A stretch of DNA of 50,748 nt from contig NZ_FOOK01000025.1 of assembly GCF_900113175.1 (NCBI RefSeq), forward strand, positions 1 through 50,748, in the 5' to 3' direction. This DNA comes from Planifilum fulgidum (GTDB taxonomy: Bacteria; Bacillota; Bacilli; Thermoactinomycetales; DSM-44946). Within the stretch, counting starts at the first letter, position 1. Each line of letters starts with the position of its first letter. The position numbers and the translations under genes are program-made. A model generated the notes under the pieces. The model was given only the letters and a program-made list of their open reading frames with translations. It searched no databases and was not told the DNA's origin. Shown here in pieces: positions 7,612-27,001 of the stretch.

Positions 7612-8447
7612 CTTCCCTTCAACACCTCGCAGGCCTCCTCCAACGTCACGGGAAAGTGGGAGCTTCCTTCCCTCCTGGCGTCCAACTCCCGGCAAACGCG
7701 GGTGTAAACCGGCGGTGCGACGCCGAACCGCATCAGATCCTCCCGGGAAAAAACCGCCGCCGGAGTGTCAAACTGGATCAGCTTCCCTTCGTCGAGGAGC
7801 AGCACCCGGTTGCAATAGCGGGCGATCTTCTCCATTTTGTGCTCCACCAGAATGACGGTCATCCCTTCTTCGCTCAGGCGATGAATGGCGCGAAAAACCT
7901 CTTCGGTCCCCTGCGGATCCAACTGGGAAGTGGGTTCATCCAATACGATGATTTCCGGTTTCAGGGCGATGACGCCGGCGATGGCCATCCGCTGCGCCTG
8001 ACCGCCGGACAATTCGAAGGGATTGCGGTCCTTTACATCCTCCAACCCCAGGAGATGAAGGGCGAAATCGACCCGCTCGATCATCTCCTTCCGGGGGACG
8101 CCCATGTTTTCCAGGCCGAAGGCCACCTCTTCGTAGACGGTCCACTTGGCTCCCGTCACCTGCGTAAAGGGATTCTGAAAGACGATTCCCACCTTGGCGG
8201 AAAGCCGGCCCACGCTGCTTTTCAAGACTTCCAGGCCCGCGACGGTCACTCTGCCCCCATAGGCGCCGCGGTAAAAATGGGGAACCAGGCCGACCAGGGC
8301 CTGGCAAAGGGTGGACTTTCCGGCCCCGTTCCGTCCGATGATGCCGATCATCTCCCCTTCGTCCACTTCGAAGGACAGATCGTCCAGGGCCAACGTTTCC
8401 GCTTGCGGATAGCGGTATTTCAGATGTTCCACGATCACCTTCTTCAT
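7608..8447 (-). CDS. ECF transporter ATPase, first copy
   Basis: 279 residues. Canonical ABC motifs: Walker A GRNGAGKST, Q-loop VFQNPFTQ, signature LSGGQAQRMAIAG, Walker B IIVLDEPTSQLD, and switch His in VEHKMEK. The start at 8447 (MKKVIVEHLKYRYPQ) is chosen because it overlaps the EcfT stop as ATGA. A longer open frame upstream is an artefact of EcfT-coding DNA. It is the catalytically complete partner of the neighbouring ATPase with degenerate signature. Confidence 0.88.
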   Translation of the reverse strand: MKKVIVEHLKYRYPQAETLALDDLSFEVDEGEMIGIIGRNGAGKSTLCQALVGLVPHFYRGAYGGRVTVAGLEVLKSSVGRLSAKVGIVFQNPFTQVTGAKWTVYEEVAFGLENMGVPRKEMIERVDFALHLLGLEDVKDRNPFELSGGQAQRMAIAGVIALKPEIIVLDEPTSQLDPQGTEEVFRAIHRLSEEGMTVILVEHKMEKIARYCNRVLLLDEGKLIQFDTPAAVFSREDLMRFGVAPPVYTRVCRELDARREGSSHFPVTLEEACEVLKGR

Positions 8448-9211
8448 CCCAAAATCCTCCAGACGACGGAAAGGGCCAGCACCAGAAGCAGACACGCTCC
8501 GATGGCGCGGCTGTGGGGATATTTCCTTTTCTCCCTCAGCCACGTCCTTTTCCCTTCGAAGTGGATTCCTCTCACTTCCAGGGCCAATGCCCTTTCCTTG
8601 GCGTGGATCAGCGAGCTCATCACGACGGGACCGATCAGGGGCAGGAACGCTTTCACCCGCACCCACAGGTTCCCTTCCGTCTCCAGCCCCCTGGAGCGCT
8701 GGGCATCCATGATGGTCCGGGTGGTTTTGATCATCTGCGGGAGGATCTGAAAAATGGAAGCGAGCACGTACCCCAAACGGGGGGACAAGCCCCGGCGAAC
8801 CAACTCTTCCACGAGGTCGGCGGGCCTGGTGGTCAGCACCAACAGCAGAAAGGCCGCCACAATGGTGATCACCCGGACCACGATCCGAAGCGCGTTCATC
8901 AGGCCTTCAACGTAAAAAACGAAGGGCTCCCGGCCGAACAGCGGCGTCTGGTTCCCCGGATAAAACCACCCCTGGATCAAGACCACCGTGCCGAGCACCA
9001 GAGAAACAAAGGCGAATACGGGAAGCGACTGCCGGATCACTTTTGCCGCGGCCAACAGGGCGAGGCTGGTCAGCATCCAAAGAAAAGAAACCGCCATCGA
9101 CGGCAGAATCAAGGGAACGGAAACAGCGGTGAGGACATAGAGGATTTTGTTGATCGGGTCGATCCGATGGATCAGGGAATCTTTCTCCACGTACAGACTG
9201 AAGGTTTTCAT
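8444..9211 (-). CDS. ECF transporter transmembrane subunit EcfT
   Basis: 255 residues with several membrane helices. The two coupling motifs of EcfT proteins are present in the cytoplasmic region: AQRSRGLE and LEVRGIH (Arg-Gly core), which dock in the ATPase grooves and transmit ATP hydrolysis to the S component. It starts 15 bases after the S-component stop and overlaps the following ATPase gene by ATGA. Confidence 0.88.
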   Translation of the reverse strand: MKTFSLYVEKDSLIHRIDPINKILYVLTAVSVPLILPSMAVSFLWMLTSLALLAAAKVIRQSLPVFAFVSLVLGTVVLIQGWFYPGNQTPLFGREPFVFYVEGLMNALRIVVRVITIVAAFLLLVLTTRPADLVEELVRRGLSPRLGYVLASIFQILPQMIKTTRTIMDAQRSRGLETEGNLWVRVKAFLPLIGPVVMSSLIHAKERALALEVRGIHFEGKRTWLREKRKYPHSRAIGACLLLVLALSVVWRILG

Positions 9212-9226
9212 CGCATTTCCCCGGTT

Positions 9227-9829
9227 TCAGTCCAAGGATTCCAAATCGCGGCTTCCGGTGTAGAGCTGCCTGATGTTTTTCGGAAGTCCCCGGAAAAGGG
9301 CGTAGGCGGCGAGGACGGTCAAAAGCTTGTCGGGCACGTCCACCACCACTTCGTCCAGGAAGGAGGCAAGCCAGACGGAGTCCGTCCGGGCCAAAACCGC
9401 CGCAAAGAGGGCGTCACCCCAGAGGTTGCCGGTCTGTCCCCCCCAGAACCACACGTTGAGGGGAGTGGAGACCGCCGTCGCCGTGAGACCGACGGCCAAG
9501 CCGACAAAAAGGGCCTTGCCCCATCCGTCGATCCAGCCCCTGAAGGCCATGATTCCGGCCACCAGCCCGATGAAAAGGCTCGTCAAACCGTACACAAAGG
9601 AAATCGGATCGACGGTCAAACCGTAAATCACATTGTTGATGGCCCCCGCAAGGGCGCCGATGACGGGTCCCGCCAGCATCCCGGCCAGCACGGTACCGAT
9701 CGAATCCAGCCACAACGGAAGTTTCAGTGTGCCGGCAAAAAGTTTGCCGACATAGTTGATGCCCACCGCCACGGGAATCAACACCAGCGACGGCGTCGTA
9801 AAGCGAAACCAGGATTTCCGCTGTTGCAT
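9227..9829 (-). CDS. ECF transporter substrate-binding S component, substrate unknown
   Basis: 200 residues, about six membrane helices. WLDSIGTVLAGMLAGPVIG and ALAGAINNVIYG fit the helix 2-3 region of an S component, the membrane protein that captures the vitamin or metal. The start is either GTG 9838, overlapping the preceding stop as GTGA, or ATG 9829; the latter is preferred because GAGGAG lies 8 bases before it. No vitamin riboswitch is visible, so cobalamin, queuosine, thiamine-precursor or other substrates remain possible. Its tight link to a Cys-rich lipoprotein is unusual. Confidence 0.75.
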   Translation of the reverse strand: MQQRKSWFRFTTPSLVLIPVAVGINYVGKLFAGTLKLPLWLDSIGTVLAGMLAGPVIGALAGAINNVIYGLTVDPISFVYGLTSLFIGLVAGIMAFRGWIDGWGKALFVGLAVGLTATAVSTPLNVWFWGGQTGNLWGDALFAAVLARTDSVWLASFLDEVVVDVPDKLLTVLAAYALFRGLPKNIRQLYTGSRDLESLD

Positions 9830-9834
9830 GGAGA

Positions 9835-10341
9835 TCACTCCTCGGAGGATTTGGGAGGCTTCGGCGTCGGGGTCGGCGTTCCCCGGGACCCGTAATGCTC
9901 ATCAATAAATCGGCGGATTTCCCGAAGGGACTTGCCTTCACGGTGCATGGCGATCGCGTCACGCGCGATGTCGATGCAGATCCCTCAGGTGTGGCCCATC
10001 CGGTCCCAGACCACTTCGCCGTTCGGCTTCACATCCTGGATAAAGCAATGCAGGTTGTGCCCATGCCCGTTGTCTCCACAGCCGCAGAAGCAGGGCATGT
10101 ATTTGAGCACGTCCCGGTGGGCGTACGCCAACTTGTAGGTCTCGCGGGCCTTGGGAAGTCCTTCATCCACAAAATCGGGCGGATCCACTTCCACCTTTTC
10201 GGCCACTTCCGACAGGGCGGCGAGGCTTTCCTGCGACGGTCCCCGGACGCCTTCTCCGGAGGGGCGGACGGGAGAATCGTCCTGACCGGTACATCCGACC
10301 AACAAGCAAATCCCCAAAAACCCCCACAGCGCCTTTTTCAT
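9835..10341 (-). CDS. PCYCGC-type lipoprotein with in-frame TGA, probable selenoprotein
   Basis: 168 codons if TGA 9987-9985 is read as an amino acid. M1-C17 is a lipoprotein signal (LLVGC, Cys17). Residues 83-88 are PCFCGC, the motif that names the PCYCGC family, followed by HNLHCF and VVWDRMGHT. Codon 119 is TGA, then GICIDIARDAIAMHREGKS and a TPTPTPKPP tail. Family members, as I recall them, read K-C-G-V-C here, so TGA replaces a conserved Cys and would give a U-G-I-C site. The frame stays open for 49 more codons of family-like sequence and ends at TGA 9837-9835, overlapping the next gene's GTG. A SECIS-like hairpin follows the TGA. The alternatives are a nonsense mutation or a 118-residue product. 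Function in the family is not known; a redox or metal role is inferred from the cysteines. Confidence 0.75.
9944..9978 (-). promoter_or_regulatory. SECIS-like hairpin directly 3' of the in-frame TGA
   Basis: In the mRNA, a 6-bp upper stem AUCGCG/CGCGAU (9964-9969 with 9953-9958) closes a 5-base loop CGUGA (9959-9963). A lower stem UGCAU/AUGCA (9974-9978 with 9944-9948) is set off by a 4x4 internal loop. The apical loop begins 22 bases after the TGA and has G as its second base. Published bacterial SECIS models expect a loop 16-37 bases away with an early G. I see no clear bulged U. Confidence 0.55.
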
Positions 10342-10384: not shown

Positions 10385-10429
10385 TAATAAAGGAACACCC
10401 CGAAGAAACTTCCTTCTCCGGGGCATTCC
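10385..10429 (-). terminator. Terminator at the end of the cytochrome oxidase operon
   Basis: On the minus strand a long imperfect stem with GGAA/TTCC at its base and GCCCCG/CGGGG within it (10392-10429) is followed by TTTATTAT. It falls between ctaF and the lipoprotein gene, so the lipoprotein-ECF operon is probably a separate transcript or a readthrough product. Confidence 0.65.
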
Positions 10430-10453: not shown

Positions 10454-10765
10454 TCACAGAAGCAGCCAGACACCCAGAACTACGACCACCGCAAACAGGA
10501 GTCCCGCTCCGGTGAAGAAGATGGGGAAAAAGTGGCCCTTTTGATCCAGGTGCATGAAGGTAAAGAACTGGATAACCACTTGAATCGCCGCCATGACCAA
10601 GAGAAGCGTGACCAGTCCGGCGACGGGCAGGGCTCCCGTGGCCACTGCCGCAAAGGCGACGGCCGTCAAAATCATCATGACGGCAAAGGCGATCAGGTGT
10701 TTGCGGGAACGCTCCGGAGGATTCTTCGACGCGTCCTGTGCAGTGGTTTTGGAATCGGTCGCCAC
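10454..10765 (-). CDS. ctaF: Cytochrome c oxidase subunit IV (CtaF)
   Basis: 103 residues with three membrane helices and the family motif IQFFTFMHLDQKGH between helices two and three. This is the small subunit IV of bacterial caa3/quinol oxidases, which helps assemble the CuB centre. GTG at 10765 is the start, with AAAGGTGGGG upstream. It is the last gene of the cta operon, 3 bases after ctaE, and a terminator follows within its 3' flank. Confidence 0.88.
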   Translation of the reverse strand: MATDSKTTAQDASKNPPERSRKHLIAFAVMMILTAVAFAAVATGALPVAGLVTLLLVMAAIQVVIQFFTFMHLDQKGHFFPIFFTGAGLLFAVVVVLGVWLLL

Positions 10766-10768
10766 GGT

Positions 10769-11392
10769 TTACCCCACCTTTCCGAGAAGATAGACGACGG
10801 TGAAGATGAACACCCAGATAACGTCGATGAAGTGCCAATACAGGCTGGCCACGTACAATTTGGGAGCGGTCACCGCATTGATTCCCTGCTTCCGAACCTG
10901 GATGATCAAGCCGGTGATCCAGAGGATCCCGAAGAGAACGTGGGACCCGTGGGTTCCCACCAGCGTGTAGAAGGCGGAAGCGAAGGCACTGCCGGTGAAG
11001 TGATGTCCGAGATGGGTGTATTCGTAGAACTCGTAAATCTCCATTCCCAGGAAGGCGGCGCCCAGCAGCACCGTCACGCCGAACCAAAACAGGGTTCGGC
11101 GAAGATCGCTGCGGTGCATGTTGACGACGCCCAGCACACTGGTCAGGCTGCTTGTGAGCAGGATGACCGTCATCAGCGCCACCATCCACAGGTTGAACAA
11201 TTCCTGGGAGGAGGGGCCGTCCATGTGCTGGTTCTTCAGGGCCAGGTACGTGCCGAAGAGGGAGGCGAACAGCACCGTTTCGGCCCCGATGAAAAACCAC
11301 ACGCCGAGAATCTTGTTTTTCCCTTCCAGGGTCGACGTCTCCAGGTGGTCCGGCATTTTCGGAGCCATGCTCAAATCATTGTGCGAACTCAT
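10769..11392 (-). CDS. ctaE: Cytochrome c oxidase subunit III (CtaE)
   Basis: 207 residues, five membrane helices, as in Bacillus-type subunit III. Markers are WFFIGAETVLFASLFGTY, GTHGSHVLFGILW and SLYWHFIDVIWVFIF, which carry the conserved helix-packing and lipid-binding residues. The ATG overlaps the ctaD stop as ATGA, giving translational coupling and matched amounts of subunits I and III. Confidence 0.95.
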   Translation of the reverse strand: MSSHNDLSMAPKMPDHLETSTLEGKNKILGVWFFIGAETVLFASLFGTYLALKNQHMDGPSSQELFNLWMVALMTVILLTSSLTSVLGVVNMHRSDLRRTLFWFGVTVLLGAAFLGMEIYEFYEYTHLGHHFTGSAFASAFYTLVGTHGSHVLFGILWITGLIIQVRKQGINAVTAPKLYVASLYWHFIDVIWVFIFTVVYLLGKVG

Positions 11393-13305
11393 GCCTGTGC
11401 CCCCTTATCCGCGCTCTTCAGCTCTTCGGGCTCGATATAATATCCCGTGTCTTTCTGGAACGAGCGCACGTACATGGTGACAAACACGATGATCAACCCC
11501 AGCGCTCCGATCCAATACGAGCGGAGGATCCACCCAAAACCGGAGACAAAGAAGCCGAGGGCCATGATCAATGGCAGATAGGTCGGCGAAGGCATATGGA
11601 TTTTACCCAGCGGCTCCGCAGGCTCCAATCCCTTCTTGCCGGCCAGCTTGGCGTGATAGAAGGCGTCGAGCTCCTTCACCAAGGGCAGTTGGGCGAAATT
11701 GTACTCCGGCACCGGCGAAGGAATGGTCCACTCCAGGGTGCGGCCGTCCCAGGGGTCGGCACTCGCCTTTTCTCCGCGGATGGAACTGTAAACGACATTG
11801 TACAGAAGGACCAACACGCCCGAAGCCATGATAAAGGCGCCGATGGTGCTGATCAGGTTGGGGGTTTCCAGCCCCAAGCCAGGCAGATAGGTGAACACCC
11901 GCCGGGGCATGCCCCAAAAGCCCAGGAAGTGCTGGGGCATGAAGGTCATGTGGAAACCGATGAAGAACAGCCAGAAATGCAGCTTGCCCAACCGTTCGTT
12001 CAGCATCCGGCCGAAAAACTTCGGCCACCAGTAGTACAAGCCGGCAAAGATGCCGAATACGGTTCCTCCGATCAGCACGTAGTGGAAGTGGGCGACGACG
12101 AAGTAAGAGTCATGGTACTGGAAGTCCGCCGGGGGAACCGCCAGCATCACTCCGGTGAATCCGCCGAGCACGAAGGTGATGATAAACCCGAGACACCACA
12201 TCATCGGCGTGGTGAAACGGATTTTCCCTCCCCACATGGTGGAGAGCCAGTTGAACACCTTGATCCCCGTGGGCACCGCGATCGTCATGGTCGCAACCCC
12301 GAAAATGCTGTTGACGACCGGGCCGAGACCCACGGTGAACATGTGGTGCACCCACACCATGAAGCCGAGGAAACCGATCAGCACCGTGGCGAACACCATC
12401 GAATGATACCCGAACAGGGGCTTTTTGGAGAAGGTGCTGATCACGTCGGACATGATCCCGAAAGCGGGCAGGATCACGATATACACTTCCGGGTGACCGA
12501 AAATCCAGAACAGGTGCTGCCAGATCAGGTGGTTTCCGCCCTGCGCCACGTCAAAGAAGTTGGCGTCGAAAATCCGGTCGAACATCAGCAGCAAAAGGTC
12601 GACGGCGAGCGGCGGCATCGCAAACAGGATCAGTCCCGAGGTGACGAGGGTCGCCCAGGTGAACATGGGCATCTTCAGGAAGGTCATGCCCGGCGCGCGC
12701 ATGTTGATGATCGTCACCAGGAAGTTGACGGCGGTCAGCATCGTCCCGATCCCGGAGATCTGAATCCCCAGATCATAGTAATCCAGGCCGGGACCCGGGC
12801 TGTATTCATTGAGCGCCAGCGAAGTGTAACCCGTCCATCCCGCGTCGGGCGCCCCGCCGAAGAACACGCTCAGGTTGAACAGCAGCGCTCCCGCAAAGAA
12901 CAGCCAGAAGCTGAGGGCGTTCATGAAGGGGAAGGCCACGTCCCGGGCTCCGATCTGCAGCGGGACCGCCACGTTCATCAGCCCGAAGAGCATCGGCATC
13001 GCAACGAAGAAGATCATGTTGGTGCCGTGCAGGGTGAACAGCTCGTTGAAGGTGTCCCCCGTAAACAAATCGTTTTGGGGAACGGCCAGCTGCAGCCGGA
13101 TCAGGAGGGCCTGCAATCCGGCGATGAGGAAGTAAAATACTCCCGTCCCGAAGTACAGGATCCCGATCTTCTTATGATCAACGGTGGTGACCCAATCCCA
13201 AATCCGGCTGCCCTGCACCCGGTGCAAAAATTCCTTGTTGTAGCCCCCGGTGAAAATGGCCGCCAGAAACAGGACGAGCACCCCAACAATGATGAACGTA
13301 CCCAC
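11389..13305 (-). CDS. ctaD: Cytochrome c oxidase subunit I (CtaD)
   Basis: 638 residues, the catalytic heme-copper subunit that reduces O2 to water and pumps protons. Metal ligands are visible: H93 (low-spin heme, TLHGTNM), H271 and cross-linked Y275 in GHPEVY, H320-H321 (VWVHHM) for CuB, and H405/H407 (VVAHFHYV) for the high-spin and low-spin hemes. The GTG start has AAGGAGG 7 bases upstream. Length fits Bacillus CtaD (about 620), with an extra C-terminal helix. It is flanked by ctaC and ctaE in the standard order. Confidence 0.97.
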   Translation of the reverse strand: MGTFIIVGVLVLFLAAIFTGGYNKEFLHRVQGSRIWDWVTTVDHKKIGILYFGTGVFYFLIAGLQALLIRLQLAVPQNDLFTGDTFNELFTLHGTNMIFFVAMPMLFGLMNVAVPLQIGARDVAFPFMNALSFWLFFAGALLFNLSVFFGGAPDAGWTGYTSLALNEYSPGPGLDYYDLGIQISGIGTMLTAVNFLVTIINMRAPGMTFLKMPMFTWATLVTSGLILFAMPPLAVDLLLLMFDRIFDANFFDVAQGGNHLIWQHLFWIFGHPEVYIVILPAFGIMSDVISTFSKKPLFGYHSMVFATVLIGFLGFMVWVHHMFTVGLGPVVNSIFGVATMTIAVPTGIKVFNWLSTMWGGKIRFTTPMMWCLGFIITFVLGGFTGVMLAVPPADFQYHDSYFVVAHFHYVLIGGTVFGIFAGLYYWWPKFFGRMLNERLGKLHFWLFFIGFHMTFMPQHFLGFWGMPRRVFTYLPGLGLETPNLISTIGAFIMASGVLVLLYNVVYSSIRGEKASADPWDGRTLEWTIPSPVPEYNFAQLPLVKELDAFYHAKLAGKKGLEPAEPLGKIHMPSPTYLPLIMALGFFVSGFGWILRSYWIGALGLIIVFVTMYVRSFQKDTGYYIEPEELKSADKGAQA

Positions 13306-13394
13306 GTCGTTCCCTCCTTTATCCCGGACAACCGTTTCCGGTTCGGACTCGATTGATCAAGATCAGGGGCTTTTACGGTTTCGAAGGCAAGCGG

Positions 13395-14411
13395 TCACTT
13401 CAGGTTGGTCAGATATTCGGCCAGGGCGTTCATCTTCTGTTCATCCAGATGATTGTAACTCGGCATTTTCGTACCGGGCTTGATGGATTGCGGATCCCTC
13501 AGCCAGCGGATCAGGGATTCCTTGTCGTTCGGCAGATAGCCCGCGATGGTCGTGCGGTTTCCGAATCCCGTCAGGTCGGGGGCTTTGTCCCCTTTGACCT
13601 TCATGCCGGCCCCTTCAATGGCGTGACAACCCATGCAGTTCTGGGAGAAGATCTTTTGTCCCTCCTGGGCCTGGGCGTTCACCGGCTGCGACTTGGGATC
13701 CTTGATCGACGCAACCCACTTGTCGAAGTCCGCCTGCTCCTCCGCGATGACCCGGAAATTCATCAGGGCGTGTCCGGCGCCGCAGAGCTCCGCGCACCTT
13801 CCCTCATACACCCCGGGTTCTTTGGCGTCCAGGGTCATCGTGTTGGTTTTCCCCGGAATCATGTCCATCTTGCCCCCCAGGCTGGGAACCCAGAAGGAGT
13901 GGATCACGTCCTTGGATTCAAGTTCCAGAAAGACCTGTTTCCCCACGGGAATATGCAGTTCCTGGGAGGTGCGGATGCCCAGCTCGGGATATTCAAACAT
14001 CCACCAGTATTGGTAGGCCGTCACCTTTACGCGAATGCTGTCATCCTTGGGCGGCTCCTTCGCCAGGGAGAAGGTGGTGGAAATGGTCGGAATCGCCAGG
14101 ATGATGAGCAGGATGATCGGGATCGCCGTCCACACGATCTCGATCTTGGTGTTCCCTTCGATCTGCTTGGGGGGAGCGTCGTCTCCCTTGCGCTGGCGAT
14201 AGCGGAAGAGAACAAAGATGTAAATGCTTACAACGACCACAAAAACGATGAGCATGATGTACACGCTGAGCATGACGAGATCCAGCTGCTGCTCCCCGGC
14301 GCTTCCTTTCGGCTCAAAGATATTCATGGTTTTGTCGCCGCATCCCGTCGCCAGGAAAACCATCGCCATGAGTGCAAAAAACAGCCGCCACAGCGGTTTC
14401 CGTCGGCTCAT
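13395..14411 (-). CDS. ctaC: Cytochrome c oxidase subunit II with fused cytochrome c (CtaC)
   Basis: 338 residues. Lipoprotein signal with Cys24 (FLATGC), two membrane helices (about 42-70 and 93-112), then the CuA domain with ligands H171, C206, E208, C210, H214 and M217 (GRCAELCGAGHALM). The C-terminal domain is a cytochrome c with C259-M-G-C262-H263 heme site and axial Met316 (KMPSY), which makes the enzyme a caa3 type. It passes electrons from cytochrome c to subunit I on the outer face of the membrane. The ATG is preceded by GGGGTAGGA. Confidence 0.96.
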   Translation of the reverse strand: MSRRKPLWRLFFALMAMVFLATGCGDKTMNIFEPKGSAGEQQLDLVMLSVYIMLIVFVVVVSIYIFVLFRYRQRKGDDAPPKQIEGNTKIEIVWTAIPIILLIILAIPTISTTFSLAKEPPKDDSIRVKVTAYQYWWMFEYPELGIRTSQELHIPVGKQVFLELESKDVIHSFWVPSLGGKMDMIPGKTNTMTLDAKEPGVYEGRCAELCGAGHALMNFRVIAEEQADFDKWVASIKDPKSQPVNAQAQEGQKIFSQNCMGCHAIEGAGMKVKGDKAPDLTGFGNRTTIAGYLPNDKESLIRWLRDPQSIKPGTKMPSYNHLDEQKMNALAEYLTNLK

Positions 14412-16286: not shown

Positions 16287-18053
16287 TCAGGCTTCGCGTC
16301 CCACCGGTTCCTTATCCAGATGCTGAATCCGAAACAGGCGGGCGTAATGACCGTCCATCGCCATCAGTTCCTCGTGGGTGCCGGCTTCCAGCACCCGGCC
16401 GCCGTCAATGTAGTATATCCTGTCGGCGTCGGTGACCGTGGACAAGCGATGGGCCACGATGATCGTCGTCCGGTTCTTGGCCAGGCGTTTCAGGGAATCC
16501 CGGACCCGCTGCTCCGACTTCAGGTCCAGGGCGGAGGTCGCCTCATCCAGAATCAGAATCGCAGGGTCCTTCAAAAAGACCCTGGCGATGGCCAGCCTCT
16601 GCTTCTGCCCTCCCGACAGCTTGACGCCCCGCTCCCCGATCTGGGTCTCATATCCGTCGGGCAGCTGCACGATGAAATCGTGGGCGCCCGCCGCCTTGGC
16701 CGCGGCGACGATCTCCTCCATGGTCGCATCGGTGCGTCCCATCCGGATGTTTTCCAGCACCGTGCCGCTGAACAGGATGGTGTCCTGCAGCACGAGGCCG
16801 ACATGGCTTCGGAGGCTCGCCACCGTCCAGTCCCTGACGTCCACGCCGTCCACCAGCACCCGCCCCTCCGTCACATCGTAAAAGCGGGGGATGAGGGACA
16901 CAATGGAGGACTTGCCCCCTCCGCTGGGGCCGACCAGCGCCGTCGTCTTGCCCGGATCCACCACCAGATCCAGGTTTCGGAGCGCCCATTTTCCGTCATC
17001 GGCATAGCGGAACCCCACCGACTCGAAACGAATCTCCCCTTTCGGATTCCGCAGGGGGCGGGCACCGGGCCGGTCGGTGATGTCGTAGCTTTCGTCGAGA
17101 AACTCAAACACCCTGTCCATGGACGCCAGGGCCTGCGTCAAAGCGGTTGATGAGTTGACCAGCCGGCGCACGGGATTGTATATCAATCCCATGTAACCGT
17201 AGAAGGCGGTCATTTCCCCCACCGTCATCGAACCGCGGATCACCAGGAAACCGGAAAAGCCGATCACCAAAATGGGGGCGAGGTCGGTGATCGTGTTGAT
17301 TACGGCGAAGGTGACTCCGTTCCAGCGGGTGTGTTTCAGCGCCTTGTCCAGAAAATGGTGGTTGTATCGGTCAAACAATCCCTGCTCGTACCGTTCCAGG
17401 TTAAAGGCCCGAATCACCGAGATCCCCTGCACCCGCTCGTGAAGGTGACCCTGCATCTCCGCAAGAGCCTGGGACCGTTCTTTGGATCGTCTGCGAAGAT
17501 GTTGGTAAAAATATTTGACACAAACGCCATAGAGCGGAAAGATGGACAGAGCGACCAGGGTCATCCGGGGATCCATCCACAGCATGATCCCGATCGCGAT
17601 GGAGACGGTGATCAGGTCCAACCAGATGTTCATCAGCCCGGTGACGACAAATTCCTTGGTCTGTTCCACATCGTTGATCACCCGGGAGATGATCTGGCCG
17701 ACCTTCTGATTGTTGTAATAACGTAGGGACAACTTTTGAATATGGTCAAACAAACGGTTGCGGATGTCAAACAGCACCCGGTTGGCCGTCCACTGGGCGA
17801 AATATTGCCGGTAGTATTCGATCGGAAAGCGGAAGACCGTGAAAATCAACAGGGTGATGACCAGCACCCAGATCAGCCGGTGAATCTTCTCTTCCGCGGG
17901 CAGATCGGTCAAGAGCAAATCGTCCACCGTGTATTTGAGAACCAACGGCAAGAGCAGGGGAATACCGAACTTGACAATGCCAACCACCATGGTCAACCAA
18001 ACGTGCTTCCGGTACGGCCGGACAAAGCGGAGGTACCGGCGGATATTCCCCAT
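16287..18053 (-). CDS. ABC exporter, fused membrane and ATPase domains (MsbA/BmrA type)
   Basis: 588 residues: six membrane helices (about 1-310), then an ATPase domain with Walker A GPSGGGKSS, signature LSGGQKQRLAIA, Walker B ILILDEATSALD and switch His in AHRLST. All catalytic motifs are intact, so it can work as a homodimer exporting drugs or lipids. ATG 18053 (MGNIRRYLRFVRPY) is chosen over upstream Met codons because GGAG lies 9 bases before it. It is probably cotranscribed with the GHKL ATPase gene. Confidence 0.88.
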   Translation of the reverse strand: MGNIRRYLRFVRPYRKHVWLTMVVGIVKFGIPLLLPLVLKYTVDDLLLTDLPAEEKIHRLIWVLVITLLIFTVFRFPIEYYRQYFAQWTANRVLFDIRNRLFDHIQKLSLRYYNNQKVGQIISRVINDVEQTKEFVVTGLMNIWLDLITVSIAIGIMLWMDPRMTLVALSIFPLYGVCVKYFYQHLRRRSKERSQALAEMQGHLHERVQGISVIRAFNLERYEQGLFDRYNHHFLDKALKHTRWNGVTFAVINTITDLAPILVIGFSGFLVIRGSMTVGEMTAFYGYMGLIYNPVRRLVNSSTALTQALASMDRVFEFLDESYDITDRPGARPLRNPKGEIRFESVGFRYADDGKWALRNLDLVVDPGKTTALVGPSGGGKSSIVSLIPRFYDVTEGRVLVDGVDVRDWTVASLRSHVGLVLQDTILFSGTVLENIRMGRTDATMEEIVAAAKAAGAHDFIVQLPDGYETQIGERGVKLSGGQKQRLAIARVFLKDPAILILDEATSALDLKSEQRVRDSLKRLAKNRTTIIVAHRLSTVTDADRIYYIDGGRVLEAGTHEELMAMDGHYARLFRIQHLDKEPVGREA

Positions 18054-24943: not shown

Positions 24944-27001
24944 ATGTCTTCCTCTCATCCGCAAACCGTCGTCCGATCCGTCTGCCCGCTGGACTGCCCC
25001 GACACCTGCAGCCTCGCCGTTACCCTGAAGGAGGGACGGATCGTTCGGGTCGACGGTGATCCGGACCATCCGATCACCCGGGGAACCATCTGTCACAAAG
25101 CGCGCCATTTTCCCTCCCGGGTATACCACCCCGACAGGGTGCTGCATCCCCTGAAAAGGACCGGCCGCAAGGGCGAAGGCGCCTTCACCCGCATCACCTG
25201 GGAGGAAGCCCTGGATGAGATCACCCGGCGCATGCAGGAAATCATCCGCCGCCACGGCGCGGAAGCCATCCTGCCCTACAGCTACTACGGCAACATGGGG
25301 CTGGTGAACAACGGCAGCATGGATCGCCGCTTCTTCCACCGCCTGGGTGCCAGCCGCCTCGACCGCACCATCTGCAACGTCGCGGGCAACCGTGGATTCG
25401 AAATGACCATGGGCTTCAAGGGGGCAATCGATCCGGAAGAGACCGTCCACAGCCGCTTCATCATCGTCTGGGGCGGAAACATCGTCAGCACCAACATGCA
25501 TCAGGTGATGCTCTTTGAACAGGCCCGCAAGAGAGGGGCCAAAATCGTCGCCATCGACGTTCACCGGAACCGGACCGCCCGCTGGGCCGACGAATTCATC
25601 CAGCTGTATCCCGGGACCGATGCCGCCCTCGCCCTGGCGATGATGCACACGTTGATCGAAGAGGGCTTGCTGGACCACGACTTCATCCGAACATACACCA
25701 CCGGATGGGAGGAGTTCCGGAAGCGGGTCGCCGAGTACCCGCCGGAACGCGCATCCCGCATCACCGGCGTCCCGGCGGAGAGGATCGTCCGCCTGGCCCG
25801 GGAATACGGCCGGACCACCCCTTCCTTCATCCGGATCGGCAACGGACTTCAGCACCACGACAACGGCGGGATGATCGTCCGCACCATCGCCTGCCTCCCC
25901 GCCCTGACAGGGCAGTGGAAGGTGCGCGGGGGAGGCGCCCTCAAGGAAAACGGGGTCTCCGCCGTCGACAAAGCGAAGCTGGAACGCCCCGACCTCCTGC
26001 CGGACCCCGGCGTTCGGACGATCAACATGATCCGCCTGGGAGACGCCCTGCTCCACGCCGATCCGCCCATCCGTTTCCTCTTCGTTTACAACGCCAATCC
26101 GGCCCGGGTGGCTCCCGCCCAGGAAAAGGTGCTTCGGGGACTGGCCCGGGAAGACCTGTTCACCGTGGTGCACGATCTGTTCATCACCGACACGGCCCGG
26201 TTTGCCGACTTGGTCCTGCCGGCCACATCCCACTTTGAAAACCTGGATGTCTACAAATCCTACTGGCACCTGTACCTTCAGCTGGCCCGTCCGGTCATTC
26301 CGCCGCAGGGAGAGGCCATGTCCAACTTCGATCTCTTCAAAACCCTGGCCAAGCGGATGGGCTTCACCGAATCCTGTTTCGACGACACGCCGGAGGACAT
26401 CATCCGCCAGGTTGCGGACCAGCCCGAAAACCCCTGGATGGAAGACGTGACCTACGAGGAACTGTCCGAAAAGGGCATCGTCAAGTTGAATCTCGCCAAA
26501 CAGCCCCTTTTCCCCGACCTCTTAAAAAGACACAAAATCGCCCTCTACAGCGAGCGGATGAAGGAGGAGGGGCAGGACCCGCTCCCGAAGCACGTGCCGC
26601 TGAAAGAGGGCTTCGACGCCCGGAGAAACGGCGACGCAAGGCATCCCTTCATGTTGATCGCGGGGCCCAACCACCAGTTTCTCAACACGAGCCTGGGCAA
26701 TATTGCCAAACTGCAAAAGCTGGAGGGCGAACCCCGGGTGGAAATTCATCCGGCCGACGCCGCCCGGCACGGCATTGCCGACGGCGAGGCCGTCCGGTTG
26801 TTCAACCGCCGCGGAAGCTGCATCCTGAAGGCCAAGGTGACGGAAACCACGCTTCCCGGCGTCCTCATAAGCAACGGATTGTGGTGGGGAGATTCCACCT
26901 GCGACGGAAAGGGAATCAACCAGCTGACGCCCGATCGGGAAGCCGACCTGGCGGGCGGCGCCGTTTTTTTCTCCACCGCGGTCGGCATCGAAAAGGTGTA
27001 A
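24944..27001 (+). CDS. Molybdopterin-dependent oxidoreductase with [4Fe-4S] site (YoaE-like)
   Basis: 685 residues of the DMSO-reductase/formate-dehydrogenase superfamily, about as long as Bacillus YoaE. The N-terminal cluster site is VCPLDCPDTC (C-x3-C-x3-C) with the fourth Cys in GTICHKARHFP. Blocks RITWEEALDEITRRM, IVVWGG-like IIVWGGNIVSTNMHQ, and TARFADLVLPATSHFENLD are the cofactor-binding regions. The C-terminal part (VEIHPADAARHGIADGEAV) is the molydopterin dinucleotide-binding domain. GGGGGG lies before the ATG. No twin-arginine signal, so it is cytoplasmic. No partner subunit is present and the substrate is unknown. Confidence 0.85.
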   Translation: MSSSHPQTVVRSVCPLDCPDTCSLAVTLKEGRIVRVDGDPDHPITRGTICHKARHFPSRVYHPDRVLHPLKRTGRKGEGAFTRITWEEALDEITRRMQEIIRRHGAEAILPYSYYGNMGLVNNGSMDRRFFHRLGASRLDRTICNVAGNRGFEMTMGFKGAIDPEETVHSRFIIVWGGNIVSTNMHQVMLFEQARKRGAKIVAIDVHRNRTARWADEFIQLYPGTDAALALAMMHTLIEEGLLDHDFIRTYTTGWEEFRKRVAEYPPERASRITGVPAERIVRLAREYGRTTPSFIRIGNGLQHHDNGGMIVRTIACLPALTGQWKVRGGGALKENGVSAVDKAKLERPDLLPDPGVRTINMIRLGDALLHADPPIRFLFVYNANPARVAPAQEKVLRGLAREDLFTVVHDLFITDTARFADLVLPATSHFENLDVYKSYWHLYLQLARPVIPPQGEAMSNFDLFKTLAKRMGFTESCFDDTPEDIIRQVADQPENPWMEDVTYEELSEKGIVKLNLAKQPLFPDLLKRHKIALYSERMKEEGQDPLPKHVPLKEGFDARRNGDARHPFMLIAGPNHQFLNTSLGNIAKLQKLEGEPRVEIHPADAARHGIADGEAVRLFNRRGSCILKAKVTETTLPGVLISNGLWWGDSTCDGKGINQLTPDREADLAGGAVFFSTAVGIEKV

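Follow-up and report, generated by a model that had tools for sequence, protein, structure and literature searches.

Does the in-frame TGA at positions 9987-9985 of this locus end a gene, or is it read as selenocysteine (Sec)? The question arises from a lipoprotein frame of the PCYCGC family on the minus strand of the window, by which we mean the whole 50,748-nucleotide stretch of Planifilum fulgidum DNA that was analysed. The frame opens with the ATG at 10341 and runs for 118 codons to this TGA, behind which 49 further codons stay open until a final stop, TGA 9837-9835. An earlier examination of the letters alone (the sequence-only reading) had noticed that these 49 codons still look like the family (GICIDIARDA..., TPTPTP), and this is confirmed by translation and by a PF13798 match that runs across the TGA. 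With UGA taken as Sec, the gene (9835..10341, minus strand) would encode a PCYCGC-family (PF13798) selenolipoprotein of 168 residues, whose residue 119, the first position of a U-G-I-C motif, would be specified by the Sec codon at 9985..9987 of the same strand. Our comparisons across genomes suggest that this UGA is very probably read as Sec, and the gene product is almost certainly a membrane-anchored, extracytoplasmic selenoprotein of this family.

When the TGA is taken as a residue, the window protein scores 122.2 bits against PF13798 (E 2.3e-35; the gathering score is 25 bits), with a match that covers residues 15-162, spans the TGA and reaches profile position 153 of 153; it is the sole PF13798 match in the 3.38 Mb host genome. 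Translation and conservation point to a signal peptide (10291..10341, minus strand) with the lipobox LVGC at the end of the hydrophobic N-terminal stretch, and its predicted lipid-anchor residue, Cys17, is kept in at least 90% of 50 aligned rows. Further along the same strand, translation and alignment place the PCFCGC motif at residues 83-88 (10078..10095; P, C84, F, C86, G, C88), with C99 (10047-10045) downstream of it. Invariant in 50 sequences are Y69, C84, C86, C88, H93, C99, C/U119, C122, T157 and T159. The sequence-only reading had put the TGA at the first Cys of a family motif, and rightly so: in the alignment, residue 119 stands opposite the leading Cys of the C-x-x-C in the Cys homologues.

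An alignment of homologues had been proposed as a check on this column, and all 161 aligned matches have either Cys or TGA there (TGC 78, TGT 45, hence Cys 123; TGA 38), with no other residue and neither TAA nor TAG. These matches come from a search of the order, from named genomes (the best 80 of 208 relatives), from class and phylum searches and from further stretches; some genes recur among them with more than one locus id, and they correspond to 22 TGA and 109 Cys forms when distinct 48-base stretches are counted. TGA forms were read in 21 genomes, apparent duplicates being counted once. They occur in all three genomes of the window's genus (3/3), in Kroppenstedtia guangzhouensis (two copies), Melghirimyces thermohalophilus, Paludifilum halophilum, Melghiribacillus thermohalophilus and Neobacillus piezotolerans, in two MAGs outside the window's genus and in further genomes of the class. 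Outside the class, but within the phylum, the TGA form is present in G497 and G424, the G424 copy being identical to that of one of the two MAGs. A sample of 398 genomes of the class yielded 161 genomes with a match, at least 16 of them with the TGA form; in the phylum sample a match was found in only 8 of 398 genomes. Neobacillus piezotolerans has two PCYCGC genes in tandem (L118:7141-8333); each has the TGA at the Sec column, and the inner stem is the same in the two. Since the same TGA is carried by other, separately sequenced genomes, it is not a sequencing error, and the misread TGC or TGT that had been named as a possible refutation does not apply. TGA codons flagged within the matches of G222, G246 and G035 are not Sec forms, the column there being Cys, and the TGA of L029 lies far upstream, within a broken Cys copy. 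This broken PCYCGC copy (G014:C1:773635-774007) has Cys at the column; its match is split in two and its frame is lost past the CxxC region.

The stretch behind the TGA has also evolved like coding sequence. Pairwise comparison of three members of the genus gives synonymous- to nonsynonymous-type counts of 10:7, 15:6 and 10:4 after the TGA, mostly synonymous, against 10:10, 16:11 and 15:8 in the 64 codons before it, so that the tail is no less constrained. Together with the family match, this synonymous-rich change argues that the tail has not decayed, which disposes of another refutation that had been envisaged, decayed downstream sequence. In a quick tree of 50 proteins (11 of them TGA forms), built with the Sec column masked, the column requires 3 state changes against a shuffled mean of 10.1, and at least two of the three are forced by well-supported branches; with moderate tree support and some long branches, the counts of origins are not firm. 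The TGA forms cluster in this tree, and among them sit two Cys forms, L094 and L132, which are possible Sec-to-Cys reversions; in the genome of L132 (G095) no selB over the cut-off was found. The presence of two Cys forms amid the TGA forms suggests that Sec is not indispensable.

The stem-loop behind the TGA, which covaries across species, is a putative SECIS element. In the window, the predicted hairpin leaves 6 bases unpaired after the TGA and pairs from the 7th base, which is where its start had been placed from the letters alone. Its inner, SECIS-like stem-loop, ATCGCG-CGTGA-CGCGAT (9953..9969, minus strand), starts 15 bases after the TGA. For bacterial SECIS elements a rule exists on the place of the guanosine within the loop, and in the window's stem-loop the guanosine is the second loop position. 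A stem of 5-6 bp with a CG(T/G)GA loop (CGTGA in 17, CGGGA in 5) is common to all 22 distinct TGA sequences; the six-pair stem is complete in 18 of the 22 and has its outermost pair mismatched in 4 (5 of 6 pairs), whereas all six pairs are found in only 3 of the 109 distinct Cys forms. Two stem pairs join third codon positions, and these are informative because the protein sequence leaves much freedom there: 44 of 44 are complementary, while shuffles give at most 33 and none of 20,000 reaches 44. Over the 22 TGA sequences, one of these pairs is C-G in 14, A-T in 7 and G-C in 1, and the other is G-C in 10, C-G in 8 and A-T in 4. For the stem as a whole (22 sequences), 97.0% of the cells are paired (79.9 in shuffles, no more than 51.5 in slid controls); changes on both sides are seen in 20 cells, against 6.7 when shuffled; and the covariation score is 0.479, against 0.164 shuffled and 0.000-0.091 slid. 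Kinship inflates the shuffle tests, but the slid controls carry the same kinship; two of the five covariation measures, pairs changed on both sides (2) and further pair types (6), lie within the shuffles.

It is this comparison across species, and not the folding energy, that makes the hairpin more than chance. The folding check suggested with the sequence-only reading had a divided outcome, in that a hairpin is predicted but its energy in the window is ordinary (z 0.14; an equal or better fold in 108 of 200 shuffles). As it is not distinctive in the window, we dropped the energy as an argument, and we also left unused the mean energies, -11.3 for TGA and -8.2 for Cys forms, which overlap (sd 3.4 among Cys).

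A search of the genome for selA, selB, selC and selD had likewise been recommended, and the host has all four. Its selA scores 622.6 bits, selB 361 bits and selD 393.8 bits, the last carrying a TGA of its own near the start, and its tRNA-Sec (selC) reaches 68.8 bits for a cut-off of 47. On its own the tRNA-Sec family is unspecific, with matches in 14 of 14 control genomes, 5 of them over the cut-off; ARAGORN was therefore applied to the tRNA locus and gave the anticodon tca. A second tRNA-Sec-family match of the host over the cut-off is a tRNA-Ser according to ARAGORN.

The TGA form is moreover associated with selB. In the order search, selB lies over the cut-off in 11 of 42 genomes; these include 7/7 with the TGA form, against 3 of the 23 in which the Cys state was read (G030, with a C-terminal fragment only, being left out and G014, with its broken copy, included). 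The exact probability of this split is 120/2,035,800, or about 6e-5, kinship being ignored. To these can be added 4 further and then 10 more TGA genomes, all with selB, and 10 additional Cys genomes, of which 3 have it (8 of the ten were read at the codon; G185 and G331 were judged by having no internal stop). Overall, SelB is over the cut-off in 21/21 TGA genomes versus 6 of 33 Cys genomes, the other 27 having none over it. As for formate dehydrogenase as another user of Sec, 3/3 matches in the host genome are without internal TGA, and all are below the family cut-off. The window itself has a formate-dehydrogenase-alpha-like gene (24980-26878, plus strand), with two TIGR01591 matches below cut-off and a TGA-free open frame of 686 codons.

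The exchange between Cys and TGA, the covarying stem, the sel genes and the association with selB thus make Sec the very probable meaning of this UGA. The column, the stem and the sel genes lend support to what had been proposed from the letters, namely a UGA decoded as Sec in a protein that would otherwise be cut at residue 118. The hairpin just behind the TGA would recruit SelB with its Sec-tRNA, and the ribosome would insert selenocysteine at residue 119 and continue through the 49 codons that precede the true stop; Sec119-Gly-Ile-Cys122 would then take the place of the relatives' Cys-x-x-Cys. It is hard to believe that the TGA is instead a real stop, leaving a truncated lipoprotein of 118 residues or a pseudogene that still carries a remnant of its tail. 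The frame does end at 9985 under table 11, and TGA is used as the final stop of both the selenoprotein gene and its downstream neighbour; but a leftover tail would not be expected to match PF13798 to its position 153/153, nor the site to escape TAA and TAG in all 161 matches, and the association with selB, the covarying stem and the coding-like change behind the TGA speak against a stop as well. Readthrough with a standard amino acid (such as Trp) and without selenium has in our view a very slim chance too. It would be compatible with the open frame past the UGA and indeed with all our measurements, but every non-TGA match that was read has Cys at the column and selB is found in each of the 21 TGA genomes tested (21/21). 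Furthermore, the stem directly 3' of the UGA and its loop guanosine are as in the bacterial SECIS, according to an excerpt of PMC9312934 for the stem and a figure legend in PMC2398784 for the guanosine.

A selenoprotein within PF13798 is already known, to which the window protein adds a Bacilli lipoprotein branch. In excerpts of a 2026 review (PMC13188914), OS_HP4 is listed under PF13798 with the motif UxxC and is traced to a 2007 paper on the Olavius algarvensis symbiont; an earlier review also gives OS_HP4 with UxxC (PMC9312934, in excerpt). OS_HP4/CYCXC (NF041379, 'CYCXC family (seleno)protein') belongs to the same Pfam family as the window protein and both have Sec in UxxC. All 50 members scanned match NF041379 at E <= 0.001, the window protein scoring 57.7 bits, below the cut-off of 90. 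Both probably have Sec at the same position, because the only CxxC spacing of invariant Cys in the family is 119-122; they differ in that the window protein is a lipoprotein of Bacilli, whereas OS_HP4 stems, as far as these excerpts go, from the Olavius symbiont work. The Cys-form PCYCGC (lipo)protein, found in Sporosarcina, Paenibacillus, Lysinibacillus and others, shares the whole domain, the lipobox Cys, C-x-C-x-C, the H, the C and the x-x-C, but it has Cys for Sec, shows the six-pair stem in 3/109 and comes from genomes with selB below cut-off or absent in 27/33. Plasmid records, those of Priestia among them, use the name 'PCYCGC motif-containing', and an excerpt of a Parageobacillus lipoproteome study mentions a PCYCGC lipoprotein to which no function is assigned (PMC13068155). 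Among open-licence PMC papers we found no report of the Bacilli lipoprotein branch, its spread or its element. Nothing was found there for PCYCGC with selenoprotein, for selenoprotein with Thermoactinomycetaceae or for selenoprotein in combination with Bacillus, selB and Paenibacillus, and for selenoprotein with copper and cytochrome oxidase no paper was on the topic by its title.

The Sec form is not a one-off, and gene callers that take TGA as a stop would be expected to truncate the protein in each TGA genome. Aerobic bacteria rarely keep selenoproteins, according to an excerpt of PMC13188914; the window gene adjoins the operon of a caa3 oxidase. Sec and Cys members of a single family, both in culturable Bacilli, would make it possible to test directly the gain of Sec over Cys outside the membrane.

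Upstream of the selenoprotein gene lie the caa3-type cytochrome oxidase genes (10454..14411, minus strand) for subunits IV, III, I and II, the latter with a cytochrome c domain; subunits IV and II were scanned with Pfam, and I and III are named from their translations only. A terminator-like hairpin of 17 pairs with the tail TTTATT (10392..10429, minus strand) stands between ctaF and the selenoprotein gene; the region has 2 such hairpins, the other one of 6 pairs, versus a mean of 1.5 in shuffles. By parting the gene from the oxidase operon, it counts against a function linked to the oxidase. An operon with the caa3 oxidase was discarded as a general rule, cta genes being directly adjacent only in the window's genus among the loci compared. 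On the other side, an ECF-transporter S-component-like neighbour (9227..9838, minus strand; PF12822 27.3 bits, below the cut-off of 30.7) has an ATG at 9829, 5 bases past the selenoprotein stop, and is followed by an ECF T component (8444-9211; PF02361 85.8 bits, above cut-off).

In other TGA loci, the neighbours include SCO1, YtkA, DUF1775 and a CopC-CopD-like protein (its CopD part below cut-off) in L050; a metal P-type ATPase together with a thioredoxin-like protein and an HTH protein that has a part resembling NosL in L047; a CsoR-type repressor and a P-type ATPase in L101; and a DUF326 protein in L118. With 12 tblastn queries, a copper/oxidase query was found within 5.5 kb in 13/21 TGA loci versus 7/80 Cys loci. 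This count is biased: five of the 21 TGA loci themselves supplied the queries, the window's genus accounts for three of the 21 and close relatives for others, the Cys rows L049 and L203 are one locus, and Sporosarcina and Paenibacillus make up most of the Cys set. In addition, 5 kb were available on both sides for 18/21 TGA and 71/80 Cys loci, zinc/cadmium pumps may account for the P-type ATPase matches (about 300-380 bits), and at L192 a thioredoxin-like match overlaps the one to SCO1 (63 bits). CtaD is nearby in 5/21 TGA loci, and 8/21 have no copper/oxidase query nearby; neighbours in such loci include PhoU (L062), FeoB (L060) and a deacetylase (L048). Two related small proteins are encoded beside TGA-form genes, at L047:6853-7440 and L050:9808-10410; that of L047 combines a DeoR-type HTH with a weak C-terminal resemblance to NosL (21.8 bits, cut-off 24) and is perhaps a copper-sensing regulator.

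The invariant set formed by C-x-C-x-C...H...C and C/U119-C122 would suit metal binding or thiol exchange. We tentatively propose that the selenol/thiol pair may act in the handling of a metal, probably copper, or in extracytoplasmic disulfide chemistry, and we go no further than this because the neighbour count is biased and 8/21 TGA loci are without matches. One example, offered with low confidence, would be keeping the copper sites of the respiratory chain or cytochrome thiols reduced. It is doubtful that Bacilli, of which some have an aerobic-type oxidase operon next to the gene, keep the Sec machinery largely for one extracytoplasmic lipoprotein with a selenol serving the assembly of copper sites or cytochromes of the respiratory chain; if true, this would be a new physiological role for selenium in oxygen-breathing Gram-positive bacteria.

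The fold gives few hints. A PDB sequence search returned no match below E 0.08 and none significant, and Foldseek none at E <= 0.001 with either of the predicted models (mean pLDDT 89.6 for the full model and 95.2 for the core), while the best VIA Z was 2.1 for the full and 5.1 for the core model; such nulls do not demonstrate a new fold. The nearest suggestion is that the protein is no copper protein but a CcmH-like thiol reductant for the maturation of cytochrome c/CtaC, which we consider unlikely. The N-terminal domain of CcmH (PDB 2kw0), which shows a weak helical likeness, heads the Foldseek PDB rows obtained with the core model (E 2.6, prob 0.23) and is the second VIA row (Z 3.7, rmsd 3.5, 73 aligned), but a designed zinc dimer outranks it there (Z 5.1), and it is absent from the full-model rows of Foldseek and VIA and from the rows of the PDB sequence search. 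The CcmH Pfam is reached by 2/35 members with a best E of 0.012, but unrelated Pfam families score better, down to E 0.0014. E. coli CcmH, a pair chosen after the fold and Pfam searches, shares with the family a stretch EGKS..EI.......YG (hhalign prob 57.9 over 29 columns; BLASTP 26.2 bits), but this alignment contains no CxxC common to both proteins. The neighbouring oxidase subunit II, with its cytochrome c domain, would fit such a role, but oxidase genes are near few TGA loci (CtaD 5/21), and every CcmH score is below significance.

Finally, codon usage brought up other read-through candidates in the window (20 rows, 9987 included). Of these, 9987 was the one compared with protein families, and the rest look by eye like frames on the wrong strand or the ends of genes. 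At 16289 of the window, on the minus strand, a frame of 621 codons ends in TGA and is followed by 150 more open codons.
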